A stretch of DNA of 64,000 bases from Luteitalea sp. TBR-22. GTDB taxonomy: Bacteria; Acidobacteriota; Vicinamibacteria; Vicinamibacterales; Vicinamibacteraceae. The notes below the pieces were generated by a model. The model searched no databases, was not told the origin of the DNA, and saw only the letters and a list, made by a program, of their open reading frames with translations. The stretch lies in NCBI RefSeq assembly GCF_016865485.1, contig NZ_AP024452.1:2378501-2442500 (forward strand), written 5' to 3'. Both the position numbers and the translations under genes were made by a program. This document shows, in pieces, positions 8,441 to 27,651 of the stretch (position 1 is the stretch's first letter; every line of letters starts with the position of its first letter).

Positions 8441-9472
8441 GTGATCCTGCGGGTCGGGTTCACCGGCGGCGGCAACATCAGCGACACGCACATCCGGGCC
8501 GTGGCCGAGGTGCCCGGGCTCGAGGCGGTGGCGGTGTGCGGATCCAACGCCGCCAAGGTCGGCGCGCTTGCCGAGCGGTACGCGCTGGCCGCGGCGCCCT
8601 CGCTGGCCGCGCTGCTCGATGCGCACGCGATCGACCTGGTCTGCATCGGCAGTCCGTCGGGCGTGCACGCCGACGAGATCGCGCTCGCCGCATCGCGCGG
8701 GTGTCACGTGCTCACCGAGAAGCCGCTCGACATCACCGTCGAGCGCGTCGACACTGCCATCGCGGCGGTCGAGCGTGCCGGCGTGAAGCTCGGTGTCTTC
8801 TACCAGGACCGGTGCACGCCGGCGTTCGTCGAGGCGCGCGACGCGATCGCGGCAGGCCGACTCGGGCGCGTGCTGCTGGTCGACGCCCGCGTCAAGTGGT
8901 ACCGAGCACCGGAGTACTACCGGTCGGCGCCCTGGCGCGGCACCCCGTCGCTCGACGGCGGCGGCGCCCTCATCAACCAGGCCATCCACACCGTCGATCT
9001 GCTGCTGTTCCTGCTGGGCGACGTCGCCAGCGTGCAGGCGCGTGCCGCCACCGTGCTGCACGACATCCGCGTCGAGGACACGCTGGTGGCCTCGCTGGCC
9101 TTCGCCTCGGGCGCGATCGGCACGTTCCAGGCGACCACCGCGGCGTACCCGGGCTATCCTCGCCGCGTCGAGATCACCGGGACCGAGGGCACCCTGATCC
9201 TCGAGCACGACCGCATCGCCGGATGGGACCTCAAGAGCGGACACGTCGACGGCACGACGCTCACCAGTGCGACCAAGAGCGCGTCGACGGCGGTCGTCGC
9301 CGATGCGTCTCCCCACCGCCGCGTCGTCGAGGACTTCGTCGATGCCCTGGGGGCCGGTCGTCGGCCGGCGTGCGACGCCCGGGAGGGACGGCGCAGCGTG
9401 GCGCTGGTGGAGGCCCTGTACGAATCGGCACGCACCGGCACCAGCGTGTCCCTGCAACCGGAAGGCATGTGA
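8441..9472 (+). CDS. Gfo/Idh/MocA-family sugar dehydrogenase (cytoplasmic)
   Basis: NAD(P)-dependent dehydrogenase of sugars, inositols or their derivatives. LRVGFTGGGNISDTHI is the Rossmann dinucleotide motif; HVLTEKPLDI contains the family EKP lysine; GGGALINQAIHTVDLL contains the catalytic histidine region. No export signal, so cytoplasmic, unlike the Tat-directed relatives at 26302 and 32996. GTG start preceded by GGGGGGACGAGG, a purine-rich ribosome site. Its TGA overlaps the ATG of the next gene (ATGA), so it is translationally coupled to the Tat-exported small subunit and the GMC flavoprotein. Confidence 0.85.
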   Translation: MILRVGFTGGGNISDTHIRAVAEVPGLEAVAVCGSNAAKVGALAERYALAAAPSLAALLDAHAIDLVCIGSPSGVHADEIALAASRGCHVLTEKPLDITVERVDTAIAAVERAGVKLGVFYQDRCTPAFVEARDAIAAGRLGRVLLVDARVKWYRAPEYYRSAPWRGTPSLDGGGALINQAIHTVDLLLFLLGDVASVQARAATVLHDIRVEDTLVASLAFASGAIGTFQATTAAYPGYPRRVEITGTEGTLILEHDRIAGWDLKSGHVDGTTLTSATKSASTAVVADASPHRRVVEDFVDALGAGRRPACDAREGRRSVALVEALYESARTGTSVSLQPEGM

Positions 9473-10101
9473 TGAACGAGATGAACGATCCCGGAGCCGG
9501 CCTGAGCCGGCGCTCGCTGCTCAAGGCGGTCGGCACCAGCGTCGGCACGATCGCGATGCTGCCGGTACTGTCGGACGAGGGCGTGCTCGCCTTCGAGGCG
9601 CTGCAGCGCACCAAGGCCGCGCCGAAGCTCAAGGCCCTCACGCCCGCGCAGTACGCCACGGTCGACGCCCTGACCGAGGCCATCATCCCCACCGACGCGC
9701 ACTCGCCGGGCGCCCGCGCCGCGCGCGTCGCCGATTACATCGACCTGCTGCTGTCGGAGTCGGACGCCGCGCTGCAGGCCGCCTGGACCTCTGGCCTGGC
9801 GGCGCTCGACGCCGCCGCGGTGGCCGCGCACAAGGTGCCGTTCGTCAAGCTGCAGGCCGCGCAGGTCGAGGCGCTGCTCACCGCCATCAGCGCCAACGAG
9901 GCGCAGCCGACCACCCCCGTGGAGCAGTTCTTCAGGTCGGCCAAGGACGCCACCATCCGCGGCTACTACACCTCGGAGATCGGCATCCAGCAGGACCTGC
10001 AGTACAAGGGCAACCAGTACCTGCCGGAGTTCGTGGGTTGCCTCACCGAGGACGGCAAGGACTGTCCCCACTGCGGCCAGAAGGCCCAGGCGAAGGCCTG
10101 A
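9472..10101 (+). CDS. Tat-exported small subunit of GMC dehydrogenase (gluconate 2-dehydrogenase subunit 3 family)
   Basis: 209 residues with a twin-arginine signal (LSRRSLLKAVGTSVG) and the Gluconate_2-dh3 fold (LTPAQYATVDALTEAIIPTDAHSPGA is broken here as LTPAQYATVDALTEAIIPT then DAHSPGA). In gluconate 2-dehydrogenase and LacABC-type glucoside 3-dehydrogenases this subunit chaperones the flavoprotein and carries it through the Tat pore. The C-terminus holds three cysteines, C190, C198 and C201 (GCLTEDGKDCPHCG), a CxxC arrangement I do not associate with the family. ATG overlaps the upstream TGA; the GMC gene follows 3 bases after its stop. Confidence 0.88.
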   Translation: MNEMNDPGAGLSRRSLLKAVGTSVGTIAMLPVLSDEGVLAFEALQRTKAAPKLKALTPAQYATVDALTEAIIPTDAHSPGARAARVADYIDLLLSESDAALQAAWTSGLAALDAAAVAAHKVPFVKLQAAQVEALLTAISANEAQPTTPVEQFFRSAKDATIRGYYTSEIGIQQDLQYKGNQYLPEFVGCLTEDGKDCPHCGQKAQAKA

Positions 10102-10104
10102 CCC

Positions 10105-11883
10105 ATGCACATGCACGACCTCCAGCCCTCGGCCCCCGTCACGCCGGGCAAGGAGCCCTTCGACGCGATCGTCGTCGGCTCCGGCGCCGCCGGCGGCATG
10201 GCCGCCTTCCAGCTCGCGCAGGCGGGCATCAAGGTGCTCCTTCTCGAGGCCGGGCGCATGCTCGATCCGCAGAAGGAGTACAAGACGATGGAGTGGCCGT
10301 ACAAGGACCTCCGTCGGCACCGCCTGCCGGTCGGCGAGTTCGCGCTGCAGGCCGCCGAGTACCGCACGCTCGACCGGCCGTACGGGCTCACGCCCGAGAT
10401 GCAGAAGTACAAGAAGGTGATGGCCTACTCGGGCAATCACTTCACGAAGGACTGGATCGTCAACGAGAAGGAGCACCCGATCACCGGCACGCCGTACGCG
10501 TGGGTGCGGGCCCGCGTGCTCGGCGGCAAGACGAACCTGTGGGGCCGCGTGTCGCTGCGCTTCTCCGACCTCGACCTCAAGGCGAAGAGCCACGACGGCT
10601 TCGGCGAGGACTGGCCGATCTCGTACGCCGACATCTCGCCCTACTACGACACGGTCGACACGCTGCTCGGCATCACGGGTACCAAGGAAGGCATCCCGCA
10701 CCTGCCCGATGGCCTGTTCCAGCGGCCGCTCAAGCTCAATTGCGGCGAGGTGCAGGTGCAGCGCGCCATCGCGAAGATGGGCCGCAAGCTGATCGCCGGT
10801 CGCGCCGGCGTGACCACCGACGGCGTGCTGAACAACAAGTATCGCGCCCGGTGCATGGGCCGGGGTCGCTGCGGTCGCGGCTGCGACCTGAACGCGGCGT
10901 TCCACTCGCCGGCGGCGCTGATCTTCCCGGCGCGCGACACGGGCAACCTCGTCGTGCGCACCGACTCGGTCGTGTCGGAGGTGCTCGTCGACGACCGCAC
11001 CAACAAGGCGACCGGCGTGCGGGTGATCGACAAGAACACGAAGGAGGTCATGGACTTCCGCGGCCGGATCGTCATCCTGGCCGCCTCGTGCCTCGAGTCG
11101 ACACGGCTGCTGCTGAACAGCAAGTCGGCGACCCGCGCCAACGGCACGGCCAACTCGTCGGGCGTCGTGGGCCACTACTTCTGCGAGCACGTGATGGGGC
11201 CGGGCGCGAGCGGGATCCTGCCGTCGCGCGTCGGCACCGCCCCGACCAACGACGATGGCCGGCCGCAGAGCACGTACATCGTCAGGTTCCGCAACGTCAC
11301 CGACAAGCACCCCGACTTCATCCGGGGCTACGGCTTCCAGGGCGCGAGCGGCGCGGCGGAGTTCCCGGCCAACGCCGCCGAGACGCCGGGCTTCGGCGCC
11401 GCCTTCAAGAAGACGGTCCGCGCCAACTACCCGGCGCGCGTCAACTACGGCGGCTTCGGCGAGGTGCTGGCCCGCAAGGAGAACCGCGTCTTCCTCGATC
11501 CCGAGGTCAAGGACGCGTGGGGCATCCCGGTGCTGAAGTTCGACTACACCTTCAGCGACAACGAGAAGAAGATGGCGGCCGACATGGCCGACACGGCCGA
11601 GGAGATGCTTCGTGCCGCCGGGGCCACCGACATCGTCGTGCGGCGCAACATCCTCACCGAGGGCTGGTCGATCCACGAGATGGGCACGGCCCGCATGGGG
11701 ACCGACCCGAAGACCTCGGTGACCAACTCGTTCGGCCAGACGCACGACATCAGGAACCTGTTCGTGGTCGACGGCAGCATCTTCGTGTCGGCGAGCTGCC
11801 AGAACCCGACGTGGATGATCATGGCGCTCTGCTGGCGCGCCATGGACTACGTGAAGGAACAGATGCGGACGGGGAACCTGTGA
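10105..11883 (+). CDS. GMC-family FAD dehydrogenase, catalytic subunit (glucoside 3-dehydrogenase-like)
   Basis: 592 residues. FDAIVVGSGAAGGMAAF is the FAD-binding GxGxxG motif (residues 25-31). The active-site His-Asn pair is H524 (GWSIHEMGTARMG) and N567 (CQNPTWMIM). A cysteine cluster C250-x5-C256-x3-C260 (CMGRGRCGRGC) resembles the three-cysteine 3Fe-4S site of bacterial FAD glucose dehydrogenases, which passes electrons to a cytochrome c. The protein has no signal of its own, so it is probably carried to the periplasm by the Tat signal of its partner at 9472. Expected reaction: oxidation of sugar C3 (or C2) hydroxyls. The stop TGA is the first codon of an AATTGC repeat. Confidence 0.88.
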   Translation: MHMHDLQPSAPVTPGKEPFDAIVVGSGAAGGMAAFQLAQAGIKVLLLEAGRMLDPQKEYKTMEWPYKDLRRHRLPVGEFALQAAEYRTLDRPYGLTPEMQKYKKVMAYSGNHFTKDWIVNEKEHPITGTPYAWVRARVLGGKTNLWGRVSLRFSDLDLKAKSHDGFGEDWPISYADISPYYDTVDTLLGITGTKEGIPHLPDGLFQRPLKLNCGEVQVQRAIAKMGRKLIAGRAGVTTDGVLNNKYRARCMGRGRCGRGCDLNAAFHSPAALIFPARDTGNLVVRTDSVVSEVLVDDRTNKATGVRVIDKNTKEVMDFRGRIVILAASCLESTRLLLNSKSATRANGTANSSGVVGHYFCEHVMGPGASGILPSRVGTAPTNDDGRPQSTYIVRFRNVTDKHPDFIRGYGFQGASGAAEFPANAAETPGFGAAFKKTVRANYPARVNYGGFGEVLARKENRVFLDPEVKDAWGIPVLKFDYTFSDNEKKMAADMADTAEEMLRAAGATDIVVRRNILTEGWSIHEMGTARMGTDPKTSVTNSFGQTHDIRNLFVVDGSIFVSASCQNPTWMIMALCWRAMDYVKEQMRTGNL

Positions 11884-12002: not shown

Positions 12003-13172
12003 ATGCCTGTGAAGCGAATCGGGATGGGTCTGGTCGGGGCGGGGTTCATCGGACCCCACCACCTGGAGGCGGTGCGGCGGCTGGGGTTCGTGGACGTCGT
12101 GGCGATCGCCGACTTCAACGAGGAACTGGCGCGGTCCAAGGCCCAGGCGCTGGGCGTGCCCAAGTCGTACGGGAACTACCAGGACCTGCTGGCCGACCCC
12201 GACATCCAGGTGGTGCACAACGCGACGCCCAACTACATGCACCACCCGGTGAACATGGCGGCGATCGCGGCCGGCAAGCACATCGTGTCGGACAAGCCGC
12301 TGGCCATGACCTCGGCGCAGGCCCGGGAACTGCTCGACGCGGCCACCGCGAAGGGCGTGGTGCACGCGGTCACGTTCAACTACCGCGGCAACCCGCTGGT
12401 GCAGCAGGCGCGCACGATGATCGCCAAGGGCGAGATCGGCCTGCCGCGCTTCATCCACGGCGCCTACCTGCAGGACTGGCTGCTGTACGAGACCGACTAC
12501 AGCTGGCGGCTCGAGCCCGACAAGGGCGGCGAGTCGTCGGCGATGGGCGACATCGGGTCGCACTGGTGCGACCTGGCGCAGCACGTCTCGGGCCTGCGGA
12601 TCACGCACGTCCTGTCGGACCTGACCACCGTCATCCCGGTGCGCAAGAAGCCGGTCGGGGCGCGCATCGCCTTCGCGCAGGCCGGAGCCGACGACCAGTA
12701 CGAGCCGGTGGACATCAAGGTCGAGGACCTGTGCTCGGTGCTGGTGCGCTTCGAGAACGGCGCCAAGGGCGCCTTCACGGTCGGACAGGTGCACGCCGGT
12801 CACAAGAACGACCTCTGGCTCGAGATCAGCGGCAGCCAGGCGTCGCTGCGGTGGCATCAGGAGCAGCAGAACGAGCTCTGGATCGGCAACCGCAGCAAGG
12901 GCAACGTGATCCTCCAGAAGGATCCGTCACTGATGGACCCCGACGTCGCTGGCCTGGCCAAGCTGCCGGGCGGCCACCAGGAGGCCTGGCCCGACGCGTT
13001 CCGCAACGTGCTCAAGGCCGTCTACGAGCACATCGCCGAAGGCAAGCCGATGTCGGAGCGGCCGGCCCATTTCGCCTCGTTCGAGGACGGCTGGCGCGCC
13101 AACGCGATCATCGACGCCGTGCTGGCCAGCCACCGCAACGGCAACGTCTGGACGGCGGTGGCGACGCTGTAG
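12003..13172 (+). CDS. Gfo/Idh/MocA-family sugar dehydrogenase (cytoplasmic)
   Basis: 389 residues; MGLVGAGFIGPHHLEAV is the Rossmann motif. The family EKP triad is DKP here (HIVSDKPLAM), which keeps the lysine. SSAMGDIGSHWCDLAQHV carries the likely catalytic histidine. The fold and FNYRGNPLVQQAR, RLEPDKGGESSA resemble glucose/glucose-6-phosphate 3-dehydrogenase relatives found beside TIM-barrel isomerases. No signal peptide, so cytoplasmic. GAGGAG lies 4 bases before the ATG, a strong ribosome site. Probably acts on the product imported after periplasmic oxidation by the GMC enzyme just upstream; that is inference from position. Confidence 0.83.
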   Translation: MPVKRIGMGLVGAGFIGPHHLEAVRRLGFVDVVAIADFNEELARSKAQALGVPKSYGNYQDLLADPDIQVVHNATPNYMHHPVNMAAIAAGKHIVSDKPLAMTSAQARELLDAATAKGVVHAVTFNYRGNPLVQQARTMIAKGEIGLPRFIHGAYLQDWLLYETDYSWRLEPDKGGESSAMGDIGSHWCDLAQHVSGLRITHVLSDLTTVIPVRKKPVGARIAFAQAGADDQYEPVDIKVEDLCSVLVRFENGAKGAFTVGQVHAGHKNDLWLEISGSQASLRWHQEQQNELWIGNRSKGNVILQKDPSLMDPDVAGLAKLPGGHQEAWPDAFRNVLKAVYEHIAEGKPMSERPAHFASFEDGWRANAIIDAVLASHRNGNVWTAVATL

Positions 13173-13585: not shown

Positions 13586-13596
13586 TGGTATGACCA
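13586..13596 (+). promoter_or_regulatory. Putative FadR-type operator, site 2 (TGGTATGACCA), over the start codon
   Basis: Perfect TGGT-N3-ACCA palindrome whose central ATG is the regulator's own start codon (13590-13592). A protein bound here would block its own translation start region and elongation, a plausible autorepression site. Confidence 0.55.
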
Positions 13597-14354
13597 CAGA
13601 GAAGCAACGCACCTCCAAGAAACCGTTCGAGGGCGTAGCCGCGGAACTCGTCGTCGCGCACGTCCGTGAGCTCATCGAGCGTGGAGCGCTGCGGCCGGGT
13701 GACCGGCTGCCGGCCGAGCGCGAACTGGCCCTCCGCGTCGGGGTGAGCCGCCCCAGCGTGCGCGCCGGGTTGCGCGCGCTCTCGGCCATGGGCGTGGTGC
13801 AGTCGCGCCACGGCGCGGGCACGTTCATCCGTGGCGGCCCGCCGACGCTCGGCAGCGAGCCCCTCAGCTTCCTGGCGGCGCTGCACGGGTTCACGCGCGA
13901 CGAGATGTTCGAGGCGCGACGCGTGCTCGAAGTCGGCGTGGCGGGCCTGGCGGCCGAGCGCGCCACCGGCGATCAGCTGGCGTCGATCTCCGAGGAGATC
14001 ACCGGCATGTACGCGTCGATGGACGACCCGCAGGCCTTCCTGGTGCACGACATCCGGTTCCACCGCGCGGTGGCCGCGGCCGCCGGCAACCCGATCCTCG
14101 CCTCGCTGGTGGAGATGGTGTCGGAGATCTTCTACGAGCATCGACGCCGCACGGCCGAGCAGGGGACCGACCTCAAGGAGGCGGCGGAACTGCACCGCGG
14201 CATCTATCAGGCCCTGCGCTCGCGCGATCCGGAGCGGGCGCGTCGGGCGATGGATGCGCACCTGTCGCGGGCCCGCGACCGGCAGGCGTCGGAGGCCGGC
14301 TTCGGCGACGAGGCCGCCGCCCCTCCGCCCGTGGTGGTCGCCGCCGCGGGCTAG
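13590..14354 (+). CDS. GntR-family transcriptional regulator, FadR subfamily (FCD domain)
   Basis: Winged-helix N-terminal domain (residues about 15-80): RPGDRLPAERELALRVGVS and RPSVRAGLRALSAMGVV form the helix-turn-helix, HGAGTFI the wing. The C-terminal FCD effector domain shows ARRVLEVGVAGLAAERAT, VHDIRFHRAVAAAAGNPIL and LHRGIYQALRSRDPERARRAMDAHL (split: LHRGIYQALRS, RDPERARRAMDAH), with the Asp and His residues that bind metal and a small carboxylate. Directly upstream of hexuronate catabolic genes, it is likely their repressor, answering to a sugar acid. The start at 13590 is chosen over 13539 because it follows the promoter at 13520 and coincides with an operator. Confidence 0.88.
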   Translation: MTTEKQRTSKKPFEGVAAELVVAHVRELIERGALRPGDRLPAERELALRVGVSRPSVRAGLRALSAMGVVQSRHGAGTFIRGGPPTLGSEPLSFLAALHGFTRDEMFEARRVLEVGVAGLAAERATGDQLASISEEITGMYASMDDPQAFLVHDIRFHRAVAAAAGNPILASLVEMVSEIFYEHRRRTAEQGTDLKEAAELHRGIYQALRSRDPERARRAMDAHLSRARDRQASEAGFGDEAAAPPPVVVAAAG

Positions 14355-14375
14355 GGCGCAGGTGGGGGACCTTCC

Positions 14376-14404
14376 TTGATTTCGCGGGGCCTGCCTGATA
14401 GGTT
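14376..14404 (+). promoter_or_regulatory. Sigma-70-like promoter of the hexuronate gene group
   Basis: TTGATT (14376-14381), 17-base spacer, TAGGTT (14399-14404), about 90 bases before the SDR gene. Same spacing and TAG-type -10 as the regulator promoter at 13520. Confidence 0.45.
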
Positions 14405-14492
14405 TTGCGGGCCCAACACCTGCTCGTCCGACGACCGGGCGCTTCACGCGCGCCGTCACCCACGGCGAGCCTGACGGAGCGACGGACTGCAC

Positions 14493-15266
14493 ATGTTCCA
14501 GGGATTCGATTTGAGTGGCCGTGTCGCCGTGGTGATCGGCGGCACGTCGGGCATCGGCCGCGCCATGGCGCGCGGCCTGGCGGAGGCCGGCGCGGACGTG
14601 GTGGCCACTGGCCGCCGGCAGGGGCTGGTGGACGAGGCCGCCGCCGAGATCGAGGGCATGGGCCGCCGCAGCGCCCGCATCGCCGTGGACGTCGCCGACC
14701 GCGCATCGCTGGTCGCCTTGCGCGACGGCGTGGCCACGCAACTCGGCCCGACCGACATCCTGATCAACTGCGCCGGACGGACCAAGCGCTCGCCGACGCT
14801 CGAGGTCGACGAGGCCGACTGGGCCGCCATCCTCGAGACCAACCTCACGGGCACGCTCCGCGCCTGCCAGGTGTTCGGTCCCTCGATGATCGAGCGCAAG
14901 TGGGGACGCATCATCAACATCGCCTCGCTGTCCTCGTTCGTCGCGCTGTACGAGGTGGCGGCCTACGCCGCGAGCAAGGCGGCGGTGGCCTCGCTCACCA
15001 AGTCGCTCGCCATCGAATGGGCGCCGCACGGCGTGACCGTGAACGCCGTCGCCCCGGGCGTGTTCCGTACCGACCTCAACGCGCAACTGCTCGACGGCAC
15101 CGGTCGCGGCAAGGAGTTCCTGATGCGGACACCGATGAAGCGGTTCGGCAGCATCCCCGAGCTCGCCGGCGCGGCCGTGTACCTGGCGTCGCCGGCCGCC
15201 TCCTTCGTCACCGGCGAGGTGCTCGTCGTCGACGGCGGCTTCCTCGCCAGCGGCGTGAACCAGTAG
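14493..15266 (+). CDS. SDR dehydrogenase, probable mannonate/fructuronate or KduD-like oxidoreductase
   Basis: Classical short-chain dehydrogenase of 257 residues: GGTSGIG (16-22) binds NAD(P), NCAG follows beta-4, INIASLSS supplies the catalytic serine and Y158/K162 in AAYAASKAAV complete the YxxxK site. The gene opens a group with a hexuronate-type carrier, KDPG aldolase, KDG kinase and mannonate dehydratase. In such loci the SDR usually interconverts fructuronate and mannonate, or acts on 2,5-diketo-3-deoxygluconate (KduD). The gene context slightly favours the first because ManD is present and KduI is absent; sequence alone cannot decide. Confidence 0.85.
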   Translation: MFQGFDLSGRVAVVIGGTSGIGRAMARGLAEAGADVVATGRRQGLVDEAAAEIEGMGRRSARIAVDVADRASLVALRDGVATQLGPTDILINCAGRTKRSPTLEVDEADWAAILETNLTGTLRACQVFGPSMIERKWGRIINIASLSSFVALYEVAAYAASKAAVASLTKSLAIEWAPHGVTVNAVAPGVFRTDLNAQLLDGTGRGKEFLMRTPMKRFGSIPELAGAAVYLASPAASFVTGEVLVVDGGFLASGVNQ

Positions 15267-15285
15267 CGTCGGACCGGAGACTTGC

Positions 15286-16797
15286 ATGGCCCAGGCTGAC
15301 GCCGCCCTGTCCCACGGTGCCGCTCCCCCCACCACGGCAGGCGCGGCCACGCGCGTCCGGTGGGTGATCTGCGCGCTGCTGTTCTTCGCCGCGACGATCA
15401 ACTACATCGACCGCAACGTCCTGGCGGTCCTCAAGGCGCCCCTCACCCAGGAATTCGGCTGGACCAACACCGAGTTCGGGTACATCAACTTCTTCTTCCA
15501 GGTCGCCTACATGGTCGGCATGCTGGCCTCGGGCTGGATGATCGACCGCATCGGCACCCGTCGCGGGCTGGCCATCGCCATCTGCCTGTGGAGCGTCGCA
15601 GCGATGCTGCACGCCGAGGCGCCCGAAATCGGCAGCGCCGTGCAGGGCGCCTTCGGGGCGCTGGGGCTGACCATGTCGGCCTCGGTGGCCGGCTTCGCGC
15701 TGTGCCGCGTGCTGCTCGGCATCGGCGAAGCGGCGATCTTCCCCGGCTCGGTGCGCAGCATCGCCGAGTGGTTCCCGCAGAAGGAGCGGGCGCTGGCGAC
15801 GGGGCTCTTCAATGCCGGCACGAACATCGGTGCGCTGCTCACGCCGATCGTCGTGCCGATCATCCTGTTCCGCTACGGCTGGTACTGGGCCTTCTTCGGC
15901 ACGGGCGCGGTGGGCTTCGTGTGGCTGGGCGTGTGGCTCTGGCAGTACAAGTCGCCGCGCCAGCACCCGCACGTCAACGCGGCCGAACTGGCGCTGATCG
16001 AGAGCGACCCACCCGACAGCGCCGCCTACAAGGTGCCCGGCCTCCTGCTGGCCGGGATCGTCGCCGCGGTATGCTTCGTGAGCGGCACGGTGGCGGCCAC
16101 GTTCTTCAGCGCCAGGCTCGTCGCCGTCTCGTTCTTCGTCGGCGGCCTCGTCGTCGCGATCATCCTCAACCCGCGCCGGCAGGTGTGGGCCTACGCGGTC
16201 GCCAAGTTCATGACCGACCCGGTGTGGTGGCTCTACCTCACCTGGCTGCCCGACTTCCTGCTGAAGGTGCACAAGGTCGACATCAAGGGCGCGATGCTGC
16301 CGTTGGCGACGATCTACCTGATCGCCGACTTCGGCAGTGTCGCCGGCGGCTACGTGAGCTCGAAGTTGATCCAGAAGGGCTACACGGTCAACGCCGCGCG
16401 CAAGCTCACGATGCTGATCTTCGCCATCAGCGTCACCCCGATCGTCTTCGCGGCCCAGGCCGACTCGCTCTGGACCTCGGTGCTGCTGGTGAGCGTGGCC
16501 GCCGCCGGTCACCAGGCGTGGAGCGCCAACGTCTACACGCTGGTGAGCGACATGTTCCCGCGGCGCGCCGTCGGTAGCGTCATCGGCTTCGGCGGCATGA
16601 TGGGTGCCTGCGGCGGCGCGATCATGCAGATTGCCGTCGGCGTGTGGCTCGATGCCTCGGGCAACAACTACGTGCCGATCTTCGTCGCGGCCGGCACCCT
16701 GTACCTCCTGGCACTCGGCGTGGTCCACCTGCTGGTGCCGAAGATGACGCCGGCGACGCTGGAACTGCCGGCCCCCGGAAAGGAAGGCGTGGCATGA
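15286..16797 (+). CDS. MFS transporter, hexuronate/anion:cation symporter type (ExuT-like)
   Basis: Inner-membrane carrier. RWVICALLFFAATINYIDRNVL is the ACS-family first helix (quoted in part: FFAATINYIDRNVL), with the N-Y-I-D-R motif of ExuT/GudP carriers; DRIGTRRG is the loop 2-3 MFS motif; LLGIGEAAIFPGSVR is the family helix-4 signature. At 503 residues it is longer than the usual 430-460 because the central loop holds two extra hydrophobic segments (LLLAGIVAAVCFVSG and VSFFVGGLVVAIIL). It should import glucuronate or galacturonate with protons. Its stop overlaps the eda ATG. Confidence 0.88.
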   Translation: MAQADAALSHGAAPPTTAGAATRVRWVICALLFFAATINYIDRNVLAVLKAPLTQEFGWTNTEFGYINFFFQVAYMVGMLASGWMIDRIGTRRGLAIAICLWSVAAMLHAEAPEIGSAVQGAFGALGLTMSASVAGFALCRVLLGIGEAAIFPGSVRSIAEWFPQKERALATGLFNAGTNIGALLTPIVVPIILFRYGWYWAFFGTGAVGFVWLGVWLWQYKSPRQHPHVNAAELALIESDPPDSAAYKVPGLLLAGIVAAVCFVSGTVAATFFSARLVAVSFFVGGLVVAIILNPRRQVWAYAVAKFMTDPVWWLYLTWLPDFLLKVHKVDIKGAMLPLATIYLIADFGSVAGGYVSSKLIQKGYTVNAARKLTMLIFAISVTPIVFAAQADSLWTSVLLVSVAAAGHQAWSANVYTLVSDMFPRRAVGSVIGFGGMMGACGGAIMQIAVGVWLDASGNNYVPIFVAAGTLYLLALGVVHLLVPKMTPATLELPAPGKEGVA

Positions 16798-17441
16798 GTC
16801 GGACCGACGTGGTCCGCGCGATCGAGCAGAGCGGCGTGGTGGCCGTCATCCGCCTCAAGGATGCCGGCAAGCTGCGCAACGTGGTCGATGCCCTGATCGA
16901 GGGCGGCGTCACGGCCATGGAAGTGACCATGACCGTGCCGGGTGCCGTCGGCCTGATCGAGCAGTTGGCGAAGGACCTGCCCGCCGGCTTCCAGCTCGGC
17001 GCCGGCACGGTGCTCGATCCCGAGACGGCCCGCCAGGTGATCCTCGCCGGCGCGACGTATCTCGTCTCGCCCGTGCTCAGCCTGCCGACCATCGAGCTGG
17101 CGCATCGCTACGACGTCGCGGTGATGCCCGGCTGCTTCACGCCCACCGAGATCCTCACCGCCTGGCAGGCCGGCGCCGACGTCGTCAAGGTCTTCCCGGC
17201 GACGACGCTCGGGCCCGGCTACATCAAGGACGTCAAGGCGCCGCTGCCGCAGGTGAAGCTGATGCCGACCGGCGGCGTCACGCTCACCAACGCCGGCGAC
17301 TGGATCAGGGCCGGCGCCTGCGCGGTCGGCGTCGGCAGCAACCTGGTGGACGCCAAGGCGCTCGCCGCCAACGACTTCGCGCAGATCGCCGAGAACGCCC
17401 GCACCGTGGTCGAGAGCGTGGCGGCTGCAAGGAAGGTGTAG
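16794..17441 (+). CDS. eda: KDPG/KHG aldolase
   Basis: Splits 2-keto-3-deoxy-6-phosphogluconate into pyruvate and glyceraldehyde 3-phosphate. GVVAVIRLKD begins the barrel, E43 (AMEVTM) is the catalytic glutamate, LGAGTVLDPE and MPGCFTPTEI are family signatures, K132 (VKVFPA) is the Schiff-base lysine and MPTGGV binds phosphate. The length of 215 residues is normal. The ATG overlaps the carrier stop (ATGA), so the two are translationally coupled. The TAG stop is part of GTAGGCGTCGAGC, the edge of a palindromic repeat. Confidence 0.95.
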   Translation: MSRTDVVRAIEQSGVVAVIRLKDAGKLRNVVDALIEGGVTAMEVTMTVPGAVGLIEQLAKDLPAGFQLGAGTVLDPETARQVILAGATYLVSPVLSLPTIELAHRYDVAVMPGCFTPTEILTAWQAGADVVKVFPATTLGPGYIKDVKAPLPQVKLMPTGGVTLTNAGDWIRAGACAVGVGSNLVDAKALAANDFAQIAENARTVVESVAAARKV

Positions 17442-17494
17442 GCGTCGAGCTTCGGCGCGACGCTGACCGTCGACCTGAAGGTCGACGGCTACGC
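17438..17494. repeat. Two GTCGAC palindromic repeats after eda
   Basis: A degenerate copy (GTAGGCGTCGAGCTTCGGCG) whose TAG is the eda stop, then CGTCGACCTGAAGGTCGACG followed by GCTACG. The core GTCGACCTGAAGGTCGAC is a near-perfect palindrome found many times in this window. Confidence 0.8.
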
Positions 17495-17541
17495 GAAATC
17501 AGCGGGCCGACGGCCGACTGCCGAAGGCCGCCCCCGAGACC

Positions 17542-18570
17542 ATGATCAAGACTGTCTGCTTCGGCGAAATCATGCTCCGCCTCAGCCCCCCGGGGTTCGA
17601 GCGCTTCCTCCAGACCCAGCAGTTCGTCGCCACCTTCGGCGGCGGCGAGGCCAACGTCGCCGTCAGCCTGGCGGCGTTCGGGTGCGAGAGCCACTACGTC
17701 ACGCGCCTGCCGTCGCATGCGATCGGCGAGGCCGCCGTGAAGGCGCTGCGCGCCGAGGGCGTGCGCACCGAGCACATCCTGCGCGGCGGCGATCGCATCG
17801 GCGTCTACTACGCCGAGAGCTCGGCGAGCCAGCGTGCCTCGCAGGTCATCTACGACCGCGCCCGCTCGGCCATCGCCGAACTGAAGCCCGGCACGGTGAA
17901 CTGGGGCCCGATCCTCGAGGGCGCGAAGTGGTTCCACTGCACCGGCATCACCCCGGCGCTCGGTGACGACGCCGCGGCGTGCACGAAGGAGGCGCTGCAG
18001 GCGGCCAAGGCGGCGGGCGCCACCGTGAGCATGGACCTCAACTTCCGCAAGAAGCTGTGGTCCGAGAAGAAGGCGCAGTCGGTGATGCGCCCGCTCATGG
18101 AGTGGGTGGACGTCGTCATCGCCAACGAGGAGGACATCCAGTCCGTGCTGGGGTTCGACGTGCACGGCACCGACGTCACGACCGGCGAGCTGAACCTCGA
18201 GGCGTACAAGGCGACGGCCGCGGAGGTTGCCGAGACGTTCGACTGCCAGCTGATCGCCATCACGCTGCGCGAGAGCCACTCGGCCAGCGACAACGGCTGG
18301 AGTGCCTGCATCTACGAGAAGGCGACCGGTGACTTCCAGCGCAGCCAGCACTACGAGGTGCGGCTCGTGGACCGCATCGGCGGCGGCGACAGCTTTGCCG
18401 GCGGGCTGATCTACGGCCTGGTCTCGGGCAAGTCGCCGATCGACGCGCTGCGGTTCGCCGTCGCCGCGAGCGCGCTCAAGCAGACCATCCCCGGCGACTT
18501 CAACCGCGTCACCGTCGACGAGGTCGAGCGCCTCGTGAAGGGCGACGGCAGCGGACGAGTGCAGCGGTAG
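17542..18570 (+). CDS. kdgK: 2-keto-3-deoxygluconate kinase (PfkB family)
   Basis: Phosphorylates 2-keto-3-deoxygluconate to KDPG in the cytoplasm. [17 protein letters not shown] is the KdgK-type N-terminus, [16 protein letters not shown] the PfkB signature 1, and [17 protein letters not shown] signature 2 with catalytic base D283. Residues 100-110 ([15 protein letters not shown]) form the substrate lid seen in KdgK. The 342-residue length is normal. It sits 100 bases after eda, the next enzyme of the path, and before mannonate dehydratase, the previous one; the gap holds palindromic repeats rather than a promoter. Confidence 0.93.
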
Positions 18571-18583
18571 GACGGGCGACCTC

Positions 18584-18648
18584 AGTCGGTCGACCTGAAG
18601 GTCGACCGCTACGAACAGCTGTAGGCGTCGACCTTCAGGTCGACGCGC
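18584..18648. repeat. Pair of GTCGAC palindromes in opposite orientation
   Basis: GGTCGACCTGAAGGTCGACC-GCTACG and GTAGGC-GTCGACCTTCAGGTCGAC face each other between kdgK and manD. Together they could form one long cruciform. Confidence 0.85.
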
Positions 18649-18655
18649 CACGACC

Positions 18656-19864
18656 ATGAAGATCGTCGACGCTCGCGTCATCGTCACCTGCCCGGGGCGC
18701 AACTTCGTCACGCTGAAGATCGTGACCGAGGACGGCGTCCACGGGCTCGGCGATGCCACCCTCAACGGCCGTGAGCTCGCGGTGGCGAGCTACCTGACCG
18801 ACCACGTCGCGCCACTGCTGATCGGCCGCGATGCGCGGCGCATCGAGGACATCTGGCAGTTCCTGTACAAGGGCGCCTACTGGCGGCGCGGCCCGGTCAC
18901 CATGAGCGCGATTGCGGCCGTCGACACGGCGCTCTGGGACATCAAGGGCAAGGTGGCGAACCTGCCCGTGTACCAGCTGCTCGGTGGCGCCTCTCGCGAG
19001 GCGGTGCGGGTGTACTGCCACGCCAACGGCACCGACGTCGACCAGGCCGTCAAGGCCGTCGCGCATCACCTGGACCTCGGCTACACCGCCATCCGCGTGC
19101 AGTCTGGCATTCCCGGCCTGCACAGCACGTACGGGGTCGCCAAGGGCGATCGTCCGTACGAGCCGGCGGAGAAGGGCGGGGTGTCGGAGCACCGCTGGAG
19201 CACCGAGGCCTACCTGACGTTCATCCCGCGCCTGTTCGAGCGGATCCGCGCCGAGTTCGGCGACGAGATCGACCTGTTGCACGACGTGCACCACCGGCTG
19301 ACCCCGATCGAGGCGGCCCGTGCCGGGCGGTCCCTCGAGCCGTATCACCTGTTCTGGATGGAGGATCCGACGCCTGCCGAGCAGCAGGACGCCTTCCGGC
19401 TGATCCGGCAGCACACCGTGACGCCGATCGCGGTGGGCGAGGTGTTCAACGCGATCTTCGACTGCCAGCAGCTGATTCAGGAGCAACTGATCGACTACGT
19501 GCGGACGACGGTGGTGCACGCGGGCGGGATCTCGCACCTGCGCAAGATCGCGGCGCTCGCCGAGTTGTACCAGGTGCGCACCGGCAGCCACGGCGCGACC
19601 GACCTGAGCCCGGTGTGCATGGCGGCGGCGCTGCACTTCGACCTCAGCGTGCACAACTTCGGCATCCAGGAGCACATGCCGCACAACGCCGAGACCGACG
19701 TCGTCTTCCCGCACGAGTACTCGTACCGCGACGGCTTCATGCACCCCGGCGACGCCCCCGGCCTGGGCGTGGACATCGACGAGGCGCTGGCCGCGCAGTA
19801 CCCGTACGATCCGGCGTACCTGCCGGTGAACCGGAAGCTTGACGGCACCATGCATAGTTGGTGA
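18656..19864 (+). CDS. manD: D-mannonate dehydratase (enolase superfamily, ManD)
   Basis: Dehydrates D-mannonate to 2-keto-3-deoxygluconate. The 402-residue length and residues match the ManD subgroup almost position by position: N37, H122 (CHANG), R147, Y159, metal ligands D210, E236 and E262 with H212 ([24 protein letters not shown]), and H312 followed by Gly-Ala ([10 protein letters not shown]). As I recall, Ala at this last position goes with efficient mannonate dehydration; not verified. It supplies the substrate of kdgK just upstream. The TGA stop lies inside a perfect hairpin (19860-19886). Confidence 0.94.
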
Positions 19865-20011: not shown

Positions 20012-20875
20012 ATGTCCGACGTCACCCGTCGTGAACTCCTCGGCGCCGCCGCGCTGACCGCCGCAGGCGCGGCGCTGCCGGCCGTGGCCGGCGCGCAAGC
20101 GGCCAAGCCCGGCTCCGGCCGCCTGAAGCAGTCGGTCTGCCGCTGGTGCTACAACAAGATTCCGCTGCCGGAGTTCTTCAAGGCGTGCGCCGAGATGGGG
20201 CTGCCCGCCGTCGACCTCCTCACCGAGGAGGAGTGGACCATCGCCAAGCGCGACTTCGGCCTGGTGTGTTCGACGGGCTTCCCGGCGGTGCGGTCCATCC
20301 CGGACGGCATCAACAACACGAAGTTCCACGACGGCATCGTCGCCTCGCTCACCGAGATGATCCCGAAGGCAGCCAAGGCCGGCGTCCCCAACGTGATCAC
20401 GTTCTTCGGCAATCGCCGCGGGCAGGATCTCGAGGAGGCCAAGGCCAACAGCGTCGCCTGCCTCAATCGGATCAAGCCGGTGGCCGAGGCCGAGGGCGTG
20501 ACCGTGGTGGTCGAACTGCTCAACAGCAAGGTCAACCACAAGGACTACATCGGCGATCACACCGCGTACGGCGTGGACATCTGCAAGCGGGTCGGGTCGC
20601 CGCGCATCAAGCTGCTCTACGACATCTACCACATGCAGATCATGGAGGGGGACATCCTCCGGACCATGGGCGAGAACTGGGAGTACATCGCGCACCTGCA
20701 CACGGGCGGCGTGCCCGGGCGCAACGAACTGGACGACACCCAGGAACTGCAGTGGAAGACGATTGCCAAGTGGGTGGTCGACAAGGGCTACCAGGGATAC
20801 TTCGCCCACGAGTTCATCCCGACGCGCGACCCGCTCACGTCATTGCGCGAGGCGGTCCAGCTCTGCAACGTGTAG
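20012..20875 (+). CDS. Tat-exported TIM-barrel sugar isomerase (hydroxypyruvate isomerase-like)
   Basis: Twin-arginine signal VTRRELLGAAALTAAGAALP, then an AP-endonuclease-2-type barrel. Likely metal residues are E168 (VVVELLNS), D204 (YDIYHMQ), H230 (IAHLHTGG) and E267 (AHEFIPTRD), the layout of hydroxypyruvate isomerase (Hyi). Known Hyi enzymes are cytoplasmic; export suggests another substrate, perhaps a 3-keto sugar produced in the periplasm. Adjacent to the hexuronate genes but with its own -10 box, so likely separately expressed. It could also be an epimerase or a lyase; these cannot be told apart by sequence. Confidence 0.8.
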   Translation: MSDVTRRELLGAAALTAAGAALPAVAGAQAAKPGSGRLKQSVCRWCYNKIPLPEFFKACAEMGLPAVDLLTEEEWTIAKRDFGLVCSTGFPAVRSIPDGINNTKFHDGIVASLTEMIPKAAKAGVPNVITFFGNRRGQDLEEAKANSVACLNRIKPVAEAEGVTVVVELLNSKVNHKDYIGDHTAYGVDICKRVGSPRIKLLYDIYHMQIMEGDILRTMGENWEYIAHLHTGGVPGRNELDDTQELQWKTIAKWVVDKGYQGYFAHEFIPTRDPLTSLREAVQLCNV

Positions 20876-23116: not shown

Positions 23117-23166
23117 GGCGCGGTGTCCCACCGCGCCGCTGTCGTCTCACGGCGGCCCTACCTGAC
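23114..23166. repeat. GTAGGGCGCGG hairpin repeat
   Basis: TAGGGCGCGGTGTCCCACCGCGCC hairpin (shown in halves: GGCGCGGTG / CACCGCGCC) plus ACGGCGGCCCTACC. The first TAG is the peptidase stop. Family shared with 3769, 24530, 41085 and 46654. Confidence 0.75.
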
Positions 23167-23175
23167 GATCACGAC

Positions 23176-23181
23176 TACCAT
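23176..23181 (+). promoter_or_regulatory. -10-like TACCAT 7 bases before the fucosidase ATG
   Basis: TACCAT, AGGGCGC, ATG: no room for a Shine-Dalgarno site, so the transcript would be leaderless if this is the promoter. Confidence 0.4.
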
Positions 23182-23188
23182 AGGGCGC

Positions 23189-24529
<1,341 letters not shown>

Positions 24530-24610: not shown

Positions 24611-25012
24611 CTATTTCAGCTTCGGGTCGAAGCCGCGGACCTTGCGGGCGAGGGCGGCGATCTCGCCAGGGCTGAACTGCGTCTTGAAGGGCATCATGGC
24701 CGTGCCCTGCACGCCGTTGGTGATCGTGTTGATCACGTCCTTCACGCTCGAACCGTGCCGCCACTCGCCGTCGGCGAAGTTCATGTTCACGATGGGCGAG
24801 TTGCCGTCGAGCGTGTGGCAGACGGCGCACTTGGTCTTGTAGATGTCCTCGGCCGACGCCACTTCCTCCGGCGTCGGGACCGGGCCATCGGCGCCCTTGG
24901 CCTTGCTCGCGGTCTTCTTCTTGGCGGCCTGCGCCAGCGCGATCGTCGACCCTGTGCCAGCCGCCATCACGAGCGCCAGACAGGCGGCGCCCACCATCCG
25001 TGCATTCACCAT
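24611..25012 (-). CDS. Periplasmic class I cytochrome c
   Basis: Signal peptide MVGAACLALVMAAGTGSTIALA, a Lys/Ala-rich linker, then CAVCH (residues 62-66) for covalent heme c and axial M106/M107 (GTAMMPF). About 133 residues from the ATG at 25012; an ATG at 25057 is in frame but leaves an unlikely pre-region. Family: c5/c6-like monoheme electron carriers. It could accept electrons from the GMC flavoprotein at 10105, as the cytochrome of glucoside 3-dehydrogenases does, but it is 13 kb away and that link is inference. Confidence 0.88.
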   Translation of the reverse strand: MVNARMVGAACLALVMAAGTGSTIALAQAAKKKTASKAKGADGPVPTPEEVASAEDIYKTKCAVCHTLDGNSPIVNMNFADGEWRHGSSVKDVINTITNGVQGTAMMPFKTQFSPGEIAALARKVRGFDPKLK

Positions 25013-25241: not shown

Positions 25242-26336
25242 TCAGGAGCCGTTGCTGGTCGCAGCCCAGCCGGCCGCGTACTTCTGCATCTGCTCGGCCG
25301 TCGGGTTGGCGTCGAGCACGAGGATGCGGTACCTGAAGGTGGCCGGCTTGCCTTCGCTGATGGAGAAGTTCAGCGTGTCCTTGTTGTTGCTGAGCGCGGC
25401 CTGGCCGAGCGGATTGGCCGCGAACAGGCCGTACCCGCGGGCGTGCCAGTACGTGGGGTACCCCGGGTTGCCGGGGCTGTCGATGATGGCGACGGTCACG
25501 TCCTTGCCGTCGACCTGGCCACTGAGTTTGGTCCACGTGCCGCGGGTGCCCCACACGTCCTTGCCGACCTTGCCCTCGCTGGAGAGGTACTTGCCGGTGG
25601 AGCCGGCGGCGGTGTTGCCCTTCTCGTCCGGATCCTCGAGGGCCCTGATGACGCGCAGGCCGAGCGTGCCTTCCTTGTTGTCGGTCAGCTTCACCGTGCC
25701 GGTGCCCCTGGCCGCCGCCAGCGTCGTCACGCGGTCGATCATCCGCACGCCGCCGGCGGCCGCGCGGAAGGTGAACGTCGTCGTCTCGTGCAGGCGCGTC
25801 TTGCCGTCGCCCGACACCCAGTCGGCCTTCACCTGCAGGGTGGCGTGGTCGCCCTTGCTCTCGGCCTTGACCACCTCGCGGTGCTTGACCGACCCCATCT
25901 TCGGCTTCTGATCCGGCTTGATCGCGTCGGAGTTGTTCCAGAAGTCGAAGCCGTCGACGTCGCCGTAGTTGAACCACAAGCCGACGTGGTGCGGGTGATC
26001 CGTTCGTTCGCCCGGAAGCGTCGGGAAGCCGCGGGTGATCACCGTGCCCGCCGCGGTGCTGATCGGGTACAGCACCGGCTTCTCCAGCGTGTCGGGCCAC
26101 ATGTAGGTGGTGAACGGCTTGCCGTCCACGGTGACCTCCACCTTCTTCTCCGCCGGCAGACTCCTGATGGCCACCTTCGGCGCCTGTGCGCTCACGGCGA
26201 TGCCTCCCAACGCGAGGGCGCCGACGAGGGCCATCGTGGCGGTCCGTTGCGTGCGTGTGGACCCGGTGCCCGGAACCCGTTGCCCGGTGCCCGTCGTGTA
26301 CCTAGCGTCGCGCTGCACTGCTGACTCCTTGTCCAC
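25242..26336 (-). CDS. Secreted DUF6807 (PmoA-like) protein
   Basis: Family of unknown function, common near Gfo/Idh/MocA sugar dehydrogenases. Recognisable by PVLYPISTAAGTVITRGFP, DHPHHVGLWFNYGDV and NPGYPTYWHARGYGLF. The hydrophobic stretch MALVGALALGGIAVSAQA is a signal peptide, preceded by basic residues. The GTG at 26336 has AGGAGG upstream and overlaps the preceding gene by 35 bases; a GTG at 26318 is also possible. Part of the N-terminal pre-region is a GGGCACC repeat (26258-26294), so a shorter protein starting at 26234 cannot be ruled out. A second DUF6807 gene is at 50446. Confidence 0.75.
   Translation of the reverse strand: MDKESAVQRDARYTTGTGQRVPGTGSTRTQRTATMALVGALALGGIAVSAQAPKVAIRSLPAEKKVEVTVDGKPFTTYMWPDTLEKPVLYPISTAAGTVITRGFPTLPGERTDHPHHVGLWFNYGDVDGFDFWNNSDAIKPDQKPKMGSVKHREVVKAESKGDHATLQVKADWVSGDGKTRLHETTTFTFRAAAGGVRMIDRVTTLAAARGTGTVKLTDNKEGTLGLRVIRALEDPDEKGNTAAGSTGKYLSSEGKVGKDVWGTRGTWTKLSGQVDGKDVTVAIIDSPGNPGYPTYWHARGYGLFAANPLGQAALSNNKDTLNFSISEGKPATFRYRILVLDANPTAEQMQKYAAGWAATSNGS
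26258..26294. repeat. GGTGCCC heptamer repeat inside a gene's 5' end
   Basis: About five units of CCCGGTG/CCCGGAA/CCCGTTG. It falls in the extended N-terminus of the DUF6807 gene and, unusually, keeps the frame open. Confidence 0.6.
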
Positions 26337-27651
26337 CGACGACGACCTCCTGCGTGGCGTCGTCGAACGTGATCCGCTGGCCCGTCTGGATGGCGGCGAT
26401 CGTCATGCACAGCGCCACCGAGTGGCTGTAGCCGGCCTCGACGCTGGCGTTGGGCGTCTTGCGGCTGCGCACGCACTCCATCCAGTTCTTCATGTTGGCC
26501 GACGTCGCGTCGTCGGCGCCGGTGTCGGCACCGGTCTGCATGGCGGCGGCCTCGGCGATCGACATCGAGGGCAGGAGGTTGGCCTTCATGCCCATGGCCT
26601 TGGCGTGGTTCTCCTTCAGGCCACCGGTGTCGGTCACGGTGTTCTTGTCCAGATCGAGCATGCCGCCGTTGGAGTAGTAGTACTCCTTCACGTCGCCAGC
26701 GGCGTTGGTCATGCGCGAGCTGTAGATCACCTGGAAGCCCTTGGTCGTGTCGTCGAGCGGGCCGTAGTCGTACACGCCGGTGAACGTGTCCCAGTTGCGG
26801 CGCCCGTCGCGCCACAGGTAGATGCCGCCGTTGGCGACGACGCTGCGCGGCCGCGGGTAGCCGGTGAACCAGTGGACGGTGTCGATCTGGTGCACGAGCC
26901 ACTGATCGGGAATGCCTGAGGAGTACGGCCAGAACAGCCGGAACTCGAGGTACTTGCGCGGGTCGAAGGCTTCCTTGGGGCGATTGAGCTGCCAGCGCGT
27001 CCAGTCGGTGTCCTCCTGGCGCAGCTTGTCGACCAGGCCGGGGCGCCGCCAGCGTCCGGGCTGGTTGACGTTCCAGGTCATCTCGACGGCGACGATGTCG
27101 CCGAACTTGCCGGACTTGAGGTACTCGTAGGCCTGCTGGTAGTTCTTCGCGCTGCGGCGCTGCGTGCCGATCTGGACGATCTTGCCGGTGTCCTTGACCG
27201 CCTTGCGGAGGGCGCGCGCGTCCTCCATGGTGTTGGCCATCGGCTTCTCGACGTAGGCGTCGCGGCCGGCGCGAACTGCCTCGACCCCGTGCTGCGCGTG
27301 CTGGAAGTCGGCGGTGGCGACGATCACGGCGTCGACGTCCTTGCGGGCGTAGAGCTCGTCGTTGTTCCGACACACGATCGGTGAAGACTGTCCGAGCTTC
27401 TGGAGCGCGGCGCTGCCGGCCTCCCGGCGCAGGCTCCAGAGGTCGGAGACGGCGACGAGCTCGAAGTTCATGCCGGCGGCGTGCTGCTGGAAGGCGGGGA
27501 TCAGGCTGCCGCGGCAGCGGTCGGAGAAGCCGACGATGCCGACGCGGACGCGGTCGTTGGCGCCGAGGATGCGGGCGTAGCTGCGGGCGGGCAGGGTGGC
27601 GGCGACGGCAGTGGCGCCGGCGGCGTGCAGGAATTGTCGTCGGTCGGGCAT
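26302..27651 (-). CDS. Tat-exported Gfo/Idh/MocA-family oxidoreductase
   Basis: 449 residues beginning MPDRRQFLHAAGATAVAATL, a twin-arginine signal. Rossmann motif RVGIVGFSDRCRGSLIPAF, the EKP lysine in DAYVEKPMAN, and VHQIDTVHWFTG with the likely catalytic histidine. Exported members presumably carry tightly bound NAD(P), folded in before Tat transport. GGAGG lies 4 bases ahead of the ATG at 27651, which is why I prefer it to a further upstream start. It overlaps the DUF6807 gene downstream, so the two are co-expressed; with DUF6807 and cytochrome c it forms a minus-strand group of exported proteins. Confidence 0.86.
   Translation of the reverse strand: MPDRRQFLHAAGATAVAATLPARSYARILGANDRVRVGIVGFSDRCRGSLIPAFQQHAAGMNFELVAVSDLWSLRREAGSAALQKLGQSSPIVCRNNDELYARKDVDAVIVATADFQHAQHGVEAVRAGRDAYVEKPMANTMEDARALRKAVKDTGKIVQIGTQRRSAKNYQQAYEYLKSGKFGDIVAVEMTWNVNQPGRWRRPGLVDKLRQEDTDWTRWQLNRPKEAFDPRKYLEFRLFWPYSSGIPDQWLVHQIDTVHWFTGYPRPRSVVANGGIYLWRDGRRNWDTFTGVYDYGPLDDTTKGFQVIYSSRMTNAAGDVKEYYYSNGGMLDLDKNTVTDTGGLKENHAKAMGMKANLLPSMSIAEAAAMQTGADTGADDATSANMKNWMECVRSRKTPNASVEAGYSHSVALCMTIAAIQTGQRITFDDATQEVVVGGQGVSSAARR

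Follow-up and report, generated by a model that had tools for sequence, protein, structure and literature searches.

The 64,000-nucleotide stretch of the Luteitalea sp. TBR-22 genome analysed here (the window; positions 2,378,501 to 2,442,500 of a one-contig, 6.47-Mb genome with a G+C content of about 69%) encodes a flavoprotein of the GMC family and, directly upstream, a small PF13618 subunit with a twin-arginine translocation (Tat) signal. We find that this pair lies in a real and coherent set of sugar genes, which is a member of an already described kind of pathway. The two proteins probably form a Tat-exported flavin adenine dinucleotide (FAD) dehydrogenase of the LacABC/GlycDH kind, serving a periplasmic pathway in which glycosides are oxidised and then cleaved. 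The new part is small: the GMC protein belongs to a clade apart from LacA, its partner ends in a C-x7-CPHC tail, and the locus is shared with xylose and 2-keto-3-deoxygluconate (KDG) genes in two genera.

A GMC protein and its signal-bearing partner

Gene content, signals, the cluster motif and gene linkage can be read directly from the DNA. As the original prediction for this stretch had stated, the GMC protein has no signal and its coupled partner has a twin-arginine one.

9472..10101, + strand: PF13618 small subunit with a Tat signal (hitchhiker carrier); 209 residues; PF13618 (Gluconate_2-dh3) E 6.1e-30; motif SRRSLLK; C-terminal C-x7-CPHCG tail
10105..11883, + strand: GMC FAD dehydrogenase, catalytic subunit, without a signal; 592 residues; PF00732 and PF05199; C-x5-C-x3-C motif; His/Asn pair

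The small subunit starts with MNEMNDPGAGLSRRSLLKAVGTSVGTIAMLPV, which is of the twin-arginine type, and the GMC protein, composed of GMC_oxred_N and GMC_oxred_C, starts with MHMHDLQPSAPVTPGKEPFDAIVVGSGAAGG; three bases separate the two genes. The best PDB matches of the GMC protein were 6a2u, the FAD-dependent glucose dehydrogenase (FAD-GDH) of Burkholderia (2.4e-36), and 7w2j, fructose dehydrogenase (FDH; 6.7e-33). NCBIfam gave no match at E 0.01 for the small subunit or for the DUF1080 protein at 34674 described below, and the GMC protein was above no cut-off among the best 25 of its 49 matches. In an alignment to the Burkholderia enzyme (BcGDH) and relatives, RCMGRGRCGRGC of the window protein and TCCGNNNCMPIC of 6a2u have three cysteines in register (C-x5-C-x3-C), and the histidine of HEMGTARMG and the asparagine of QNPTW align with H and N of 6a2u. 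We take the three cysteines, a motif absent from the original prediction, to be ligands of an iron-sulphur cluster and the His/Asn residues to be the active-site pair.

Among the GMC sequences aligned, solely those of Pantoea and R. leguminosarum lack the cluster cysteines, and neither has an annotated PF13618 neighbour; the Haliscomenobacter sequence has the cysteines, and PF13618 is not annotated in the stretch shown. We rejected a strict coupling of the cysteines with an adjacent PF13618 gene, since three paralogues of this genome (81k, 83k and 3834k) contain the cysteines but lie more than 0.46 Mb from any PF13618 gene. A census of this genome gave nine GMC_oxred_C and four PF13618 matches, and some of the GMC paralogues have no PF13618 nearby. 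At 81-85 kb (L047 6636-10059), two tandem GMC genes with cluster cysteines have no PF13618 match within 2 Mb; at 2.631-2.638 Mb (L044 9091-16262) there is a compact GMC and PF13618 pair with a haem-motif protein and a Tat-type Gfo/Idh protein nearby.

The cysteine tail of the small subunit is encoded at 10036-10077 of the window. A C-x7-C-x2-C end, mostly CPHC, was found in 16 of the 34 small subunits compared, each adjoining a GMC gene of the window's clade. It is missing from the small subunits of G124, G050, G011b, G034b and Caulobacter, and from one of the two copies in each of the genomes G005 and G006. Metal binding, or docking close to the iron-sulphur cluster, is a possible role of the tail.

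Counting the own genome, the GMC gene has a match of at least 70% identity in all seven genomes of its family; across the class, 25 of 149 genomes have one with an E value no higher than 1e-145. The class-wide search returned 38 places, 13 of them in the window's own family and 21 within the 20 more distant regions that we compared; four (G014, G023, G034, G042) were left out. PF13618 adjoins the GMC gene in all 20 regions, within 211 bases at the 14 loci outside the family where the GMC protein is 57-66% identical to that of the window and within 36 bases at the six with 47-49% identity, and none of 20 random stretches of the own genome holds a PF13618 gene. Tat-type starts were present in 24 of the 26 PF13618 genes of these regions; the two exceptions are a gene truncated at a contig end and one that reads LRRDALK, outside the pattern used. 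This linkage, together with the expression of a GlycDH/TAT pair of the same kind (Bitter 2023, PMC10628242; all papers are cited here from excerpts), supports the predicted export of the GMC subunit with its Tat partner.

Other sugar families also recur near the GMC gene. In a rough comparison (regions of 4.5-20 kb, distance to any GMC gene in the region, control from the own genome and test from relatives), the 20 distant regions held a TIM barrel within 8 kb in 11 cases, Gfo/Idh in 10, DUF1080 in nine, a permease in five, a cytochrome resembling that at 24611 or that of Caulobacter in two, and KDG genes in none; the figures for 20 random 20-kb stretches of the own genome were 0, 3, 0, 0, 0 and 1, respectively. 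At G011, a GMC gene, two PF13618 genes, a second GMC gene, a cytochrome 52% identical to 24611, a permease, a Gfo/Idh and a Tat-type Gfo/Idh gene lie side by side. This recurrence speaks for the 3-ketoglycoside-type pathway that had been predicted, as does the finding that a pair of the same kind oxidises glycosides at C3 (PMC10628242). C3 oxidation of a glycoside by the 9472-10105 complex is likely.

A probable periplasmic route of a described kind

The candidate partners of the pair in the window are the following; the cytochrome c, the secreted DUF1080 protein and the permease had been part of the original prediction and are present.

12003..13172, + strand: cytoplasmic Gfo/Idh (Pfam), candidate 3-ketosugar reductase; 30% identical to the Gfo of the Caulobacter BK020 cluster
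20012..20875, + strand: Tat-exported xylose-isomerase-like TIM barrel; PF01261; 43% identical to the TIM barrel adjoining the Halomonas GMC gene
24611..25012, - strand: exported monohaem cytochrome c, candidate electron acceptor; PF13442; CAVCH haem motif
34674..35351, + strand: secreted DUF1080, candidate 3-ketoglycoside hydrolase; PF06439 (3keto-disac_hyd) E 2.7e-56; signal read by eye
35352..36548, + strand: nucleoside-H+-symporter-type permease (Nuc_H_symport), candidate importer; PF03825 E 2e-120
39923..40873, + strand: Tat-exported TIM barrel, possible member; PF01261; 65% homologue adjoins PF13618/GMC in G034

What follows is a prediction as to the reaction itself, the carbon that is oxidised, the cytochrome that takes part and every step after that. 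The GMC subunit would take up FAD and a [3Fe-4S] cluster while folding in the cytoplasm, bind the PF13618 subunit and cross the membrane, folded, on the Tat signal of the latter. In the periplasm the complex would oxidise a glycoside, most likely at C3, and pass the electrons to a monohaem cytochrome c, for which 24611 is the best candidate. The 3-keto product might then be cleaved by the secreted DUF1080 protein 34674, possibly with the Tat-type TIM barrels 20012 and 39923. Uptake of the sugar might be through the permease 35352 or the major facilitator superfamily (MFS) protein 15286, and the cytoplasmic Gfo/Idh 12003 would reduce the keto group.

The original prediction knew of no description of such a route with its parts outside the cytoplasm. 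In other bacteria the families make up a single compact cluster that includes a monohaem cytochrome and a permease, as in described periplasmic 3-ketoglycoside systems, and a place outside the cytoplasm is therefore the known one: Price 2022 (PMC9007349) proposes for C. crescentus periplasmic oxidation by LacABC, followed by a signal-bearing DUF1080 protein as 3'-ketolactose hydrolase, and the cleavage-type TIM barrels of Agrobacterium and Caulobacter also bear signals. By eye, the A. pusense protein in the place of OGE has a Sec-type start and its Caulobacter counterpart a Tat-type start, so an exported cleavage step fits known systems too. The prediction that all parts are exported was not supported either, since the Gfo/Idh proteins 8441 and 12003 show no signal.

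We reached the named genomes with CtrA as bait and searched eight alphaproteobacterial genomes for GMC at 1e-60. The Caulobacter loci compared are those of strains BK020 and AP07, not C. crescentus, and the LacA label rests there on locus layout. They share with the window the GMC protein with a PF13618 Tat subunit and a monohaem cytochrome, a secreted DUF1080, Gfo, TIM barrels and a Nuc_H_symport-type permease. In BK020, PF13618, GMC, DUF1080, the monohaem cytochrome, TIM, Gfo, TIM, the permease, a regulator and a second DUF1080 occupy about 10 kb, and the cluster of Phenylobacterium Root1290 is nearly the same; in the latter a 41% homologue of TIM barrel 20012 abuts the GMC gene (L198). In the window, by contrast, the parts are spread among KDG and other genes, and the cytochrome is not clearly the same one. 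The spread agrees with the dispersal that had been described, although it covers about 31 kb (9.5-40.9 kb) and not 35 kb. A Halomonas PA16-9 plasmid holds most of these families, without a cytochrome match. The six best plasmid matches of TIM barrel 20012 were compared with the best 40 of 540 GMC matches: four (Xanthomonas sacchari, Paracoccus, Halomonas, Palleronia) lie at most 100 bases from a GMC match, that of Hymenobacter lies about 5 kb from one, and that of Parabacteroides is not among these 40. The permease family of 35352 also occurs in the clusters of Caulobacter, Phenylobacterium, Halomonas, G011, G015 and G060.

The Agrobacterium system likewise combines a GMC protein with a Tat partner and has TIM barrels and Gfo in its operon. 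Glycosides are oxidised at C3 by GlycDH that had been expressed together with a TAT-pathway signal protein; elimination is the task of AtOGE, preliminary evidence assigns a hydration to AtHYD, and a Gfo enzyme carries out the reduction (Bitter 2023, PMC10628242). In A. pusense, to whose genes the names GlycDH, OGE and HYD were given by gene order, we found TIM, Gfo, TIM, GMC, PF13618 and a cytochrome; the 20 kb compared gave no match to DUF1080 or to the permease. The window TIM barrels 1892, 20012 and 39923 paired in BLAST at E 0.01 with no A. pusense protein in the OGE/HYD places; cleavage in the window would, unlike there, depend on DUF1080 or else on TIM barrels without an assigned activity. 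The 3-ketoglycoside system of Bacteroides (BT2156-2160) has Gfo/Idh dehydrogenases in place of GMC. It shares the DUF1080 and Gfo/Idh families with the window; the four window Gfo proteins are far under the cut-offs of NF058561 and NF058563 (BT2158/BT2159), at best 64.6 bits vs 750 and 47.9 vs 650. Two results weigh against a firm role of these genes in every case: Bacteroides deletion mutants of BT2157 and BT2158 grew without defect on sugars of the raffinose family (PMC11501099), and ten Pedobacter DUF1080 genes gave no phenotype on lactose (Price 2022, PMC9007349). The PDB relatives of the window DUF1080 include 8rr2, a '3-keto-disaccharide hydrolase domain-containing protein'.

In a tree of 46 rows, the window GMC protein falls into a 21-row clade (100/100), apart from a nine-row LacA/GlycDH clade (100/100), and we therefore rejected it as a LacA orthologue. 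The tree holds 11 of the 14 closer GMC genes; those of G116, G023 and G042 were placed by identity alone (63-65%), and the second-set loci G015, G063 and G094 are not in it. The window protein belongs to a clade for which we found no substrate assignment, and nothing among the literature matches listed was tied to it.

The PDB matches, the name of PF13618, which comes from gluconate 2-dehydrogenase, and the continuation of the operon into aldonate/KDG genes would also suit a periplasmic enzyme that dehydrogenates a free sugar, an aldonate or an alcohol and feeds respiration only, with the DUF1080 and TIM-barrel proteins acting on other substrates. BcGDH indeed resembles the window pair in its aligned cluster cysteines and its small subunit, a Tat hitch-hiker, and it has a cytochrome acceptor, to which the candidate 24611 would correspond; its 3Fe-4S cluster is the primary acceptor from FAD (PMC9727119). 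However, Cys213, which forms the disulfide between its catalytic and small subunits, is Met in the window protein, and its acceptor has three haems, whereas the window candidate has one, like CYTc of R. radiobacter, the acceptor of glucoside 3-dehydrogenase (PMC9915066). BcGDH is also placed outside a 44-row set that unites the window protein with LacA/GlycDH (94/98), though BcGDH, like own_3629k, sits on a very long branch of unsure placement. With cleavage-type families recurring beside the pair, we consider a free-sugar enzyme unlikely.

Signals, gene grouping and points of doubt

Two further Tat-exported proteins and a cytoplasmic one belong to the Gfo/Idh family:

8441..9472, + strand: cytoplasmic Gfo/Idh oxidoreductase, overlaps the start of the small subunit gene; PF22725, PF02894, PF01408; kept in G001, G002, G004, G005 and G006
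26302..27651, - strand: Tat-exported Gfo/Idh; PF01408, PF10518 TAT_signal
32996..34276, + strand: Tat-exported Gfo/Idh; PF01408; NCBIfam TAT_signal_seq 26.4 bits vs cut-off 16.7

Signals were read by eye or with a simple filter (motif plus hydrophobic stretch), and TAT models matched for 26302 and 32996. Six Tat signals had been predicted for the window, mostly on sugar-redox or TIM-barrel enzymes. All six motifs are present (SRRSLLK, TRRELLG, DRRQFLH, TRRDFLK, SRRALLG and TRRQFLA at 9472, 20012, 26302, 32996, 39923 and 41671), and five of them passed the filter. The sixth, 41671, did not, and was rejected as a pathway member, being an M28 peptidase by family search and no sugar enzyme. Nor do we regard six signals in 64 kb as remarkable: Tat-like signals were found in five of 47 window open reading frames and in 17 of 319 from 20 random stretches of the own genome (Fisher P = 0.18), where several of the control matches look false-positive.

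The grouping of Gfo/Idh, TIM-barrel and DUF1080 genes in the window, on the other hand, exceeds chance. The window holds eight such genes, while a 64-kb stretch of the genome holds 1.16 on average; eight is the genome maximum and is reached by 0.5% of sliding windows. A genome so rich in these families (56 Gfo/Idh, 36 TIM-barrel and 26 DUF1080 matches) might place some of them near any GMC gene by coincidence, and the missing Tat enrichment and a weak distance test in the own genome agree with this. Since no 64-kb stretch of the genome exceeds the window, and since further families of the class, as well as Caulobacter, Phenylobacterium, Halomonas and Runella, show the linkage too, we hold coincidence to be very improbable. 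A group of two TIM barrels, a DUF1080 and a Gfo/Idh gene lies elsewhere in the genome, at 1.645-1.649 Mb (L058 4725-9369).

Several points weigh against a glycoside 3-dehydrogenase pathway in the window. Glucose and fructose dehydrogenases, the nearest solved relatives of the GMC protein, are not known to oxidise at C3. The protein is only 37% identical to the LacA-type protein of Caulobacter, which falls into a different well-supported clade, and a GMC match was found in only four of the eight alphaproteobacterial genomes, including two of the four Caulobacter; two Caulobacter, one Asticcacaulis and one Agrobacterium genome gave none. The nearness of the families to the seven GMC loci of the own genome is weak (Gfo P 0.06, TIM 0.16, DUF1080 0.39). 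The cytochrome 24611, with its signal and one haem motif, lies 13 kb from the GMC gene, and the Caulobacter cytochrome aligns to it over 17 residues only. The DUF1080 gene is 23 kb away, with 24 further DUF1080 places in the genome, and its linkage is uneven among relatives, 10 of the 14 closer loci having none within 8 kb, several of them on short contigs. Finally, G001, G003 and G004 have a hydratase-like TIM barrel at the locus, whereas the window genome and G002 have none there. For the G001 protein, the sole match at 1e-8 in the own genome is a TIM barrel of L058, 36% identical and 0.73 Mb from the window.

Neighbouring genes and a possible uronoside substrate

Gene calls in the window and in several relative loci were made by a script on G+C by codon position, and starts are therefore rough; at the poorly called loci L064, L066, L104, L106 and L107 we consequently used tblastn. 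Downstream of the pair lies a further block of sugar genes:

13590..19864, + strand: GntR-FCD regulator, short-chain dehydrogenase/reductase (SDR), MFS protein, 2-keto-3-deoxy-6-phosphogluconate (KDPG) aldolase, KDG kinase and mannonate dehydratase ManD (family models)

ManD (720.5 bits, cut-off 550) and the aldolase (TIGR01182, 190.4 bits, cut-off 156) passed; the SDR passed PRK07231 alone (216.6 vs 215), and the kinase and MFS models stayed under cut-off. Gfo/Idh 12003 scored 195.8 bits against the NCBIfam levoglucosan dehydrogenase model, under the cut-off of 650. Upstream, the window encodes a BD-FAE-type esterase at 5487 and a xylose-isomerase-like TIM barrel at 1892.

In the genus relatives G001-G004 the GMC gene is followed directly by a second one, which shares 64-65% identity with that of the window and is missing from the window genome. 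In G005 and G006, of another genus, the PF13618-GMC pair is doubled, and most of the genes between 1892 and 36548 have counterparts of about 50-82% identity; 21002 and 23189 are absent from both loci, and neither the permease 35352 nor 39923 was seen in the stretch fetched for G006. In both genera the operon continues with KDG and mannonate genes and is preceded by xylose genes. The genes at 21002-24529, of a prolyl-oligopeptidase type and a GH29 fucosidase, separate the Tat-type TIM barrel from the cytochrome in G000, G001 and G002; in G004, G005 and G006, homologues of the two abut without these genes between them. Large outer-membrane beta-barrels with a carboxypeptidase-regulatory domain lie near sugar genes at 28230-31610 and 46689-49793 of the window and at L059 10036-13287, and are possibly substrate importers.

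Because the GMC gene shares its locus with xylose and KDG genes in two genera, there is a hint at uronosides. In a uronoside version of the pathway, sugars of the glucuronoxylan type would be degraded, the GMC complex would oxidise the (methyl)glucuronosyl part, uronate would pass through mannonate and KDG to pyruvate, and xylose would enter through XylA/XylB. ManD and XylB pass their NCBIfam cut-offs; the KDPG aldolase, KDG kinase, SDR and a galactonate/hexuronate-type MFS gene follow in the same direction. The esterase 5487, the TIM barrel 1892, one UxaC elsewhere in the genome and the match of Gfo 12003 to PDB 8tdi, a 'glucuronide-3-dehydrogenase', would fit as well. Yet KDG genes are near GMC in none of the 20 more distant loci, and neighbours within one family can persist together without a common pathway, so that we rate this version as unlikely. 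A uronoside substrate is a guess. A still more specific form, in which the pair, with its own cysteine tail, is a periplasmic uronoside 3-dehydrogenase that, with no need of a classical alpha-glucuronidase, releases (methyl)glucuronate from fragments of xylan directly into mannonate-KDG catabolism, appears quite unlikely.

The present evidence points to the described route, not to a new one. If the substrate were a uronoside, the pathway would provide an additional route for xylan side chains. The analysis provides a named gene set and a GMC clade without an assigned substrate, and extends the periplasmic oxidise-then-cleave glycoside route to a lineage beyond those in which it was worked out.

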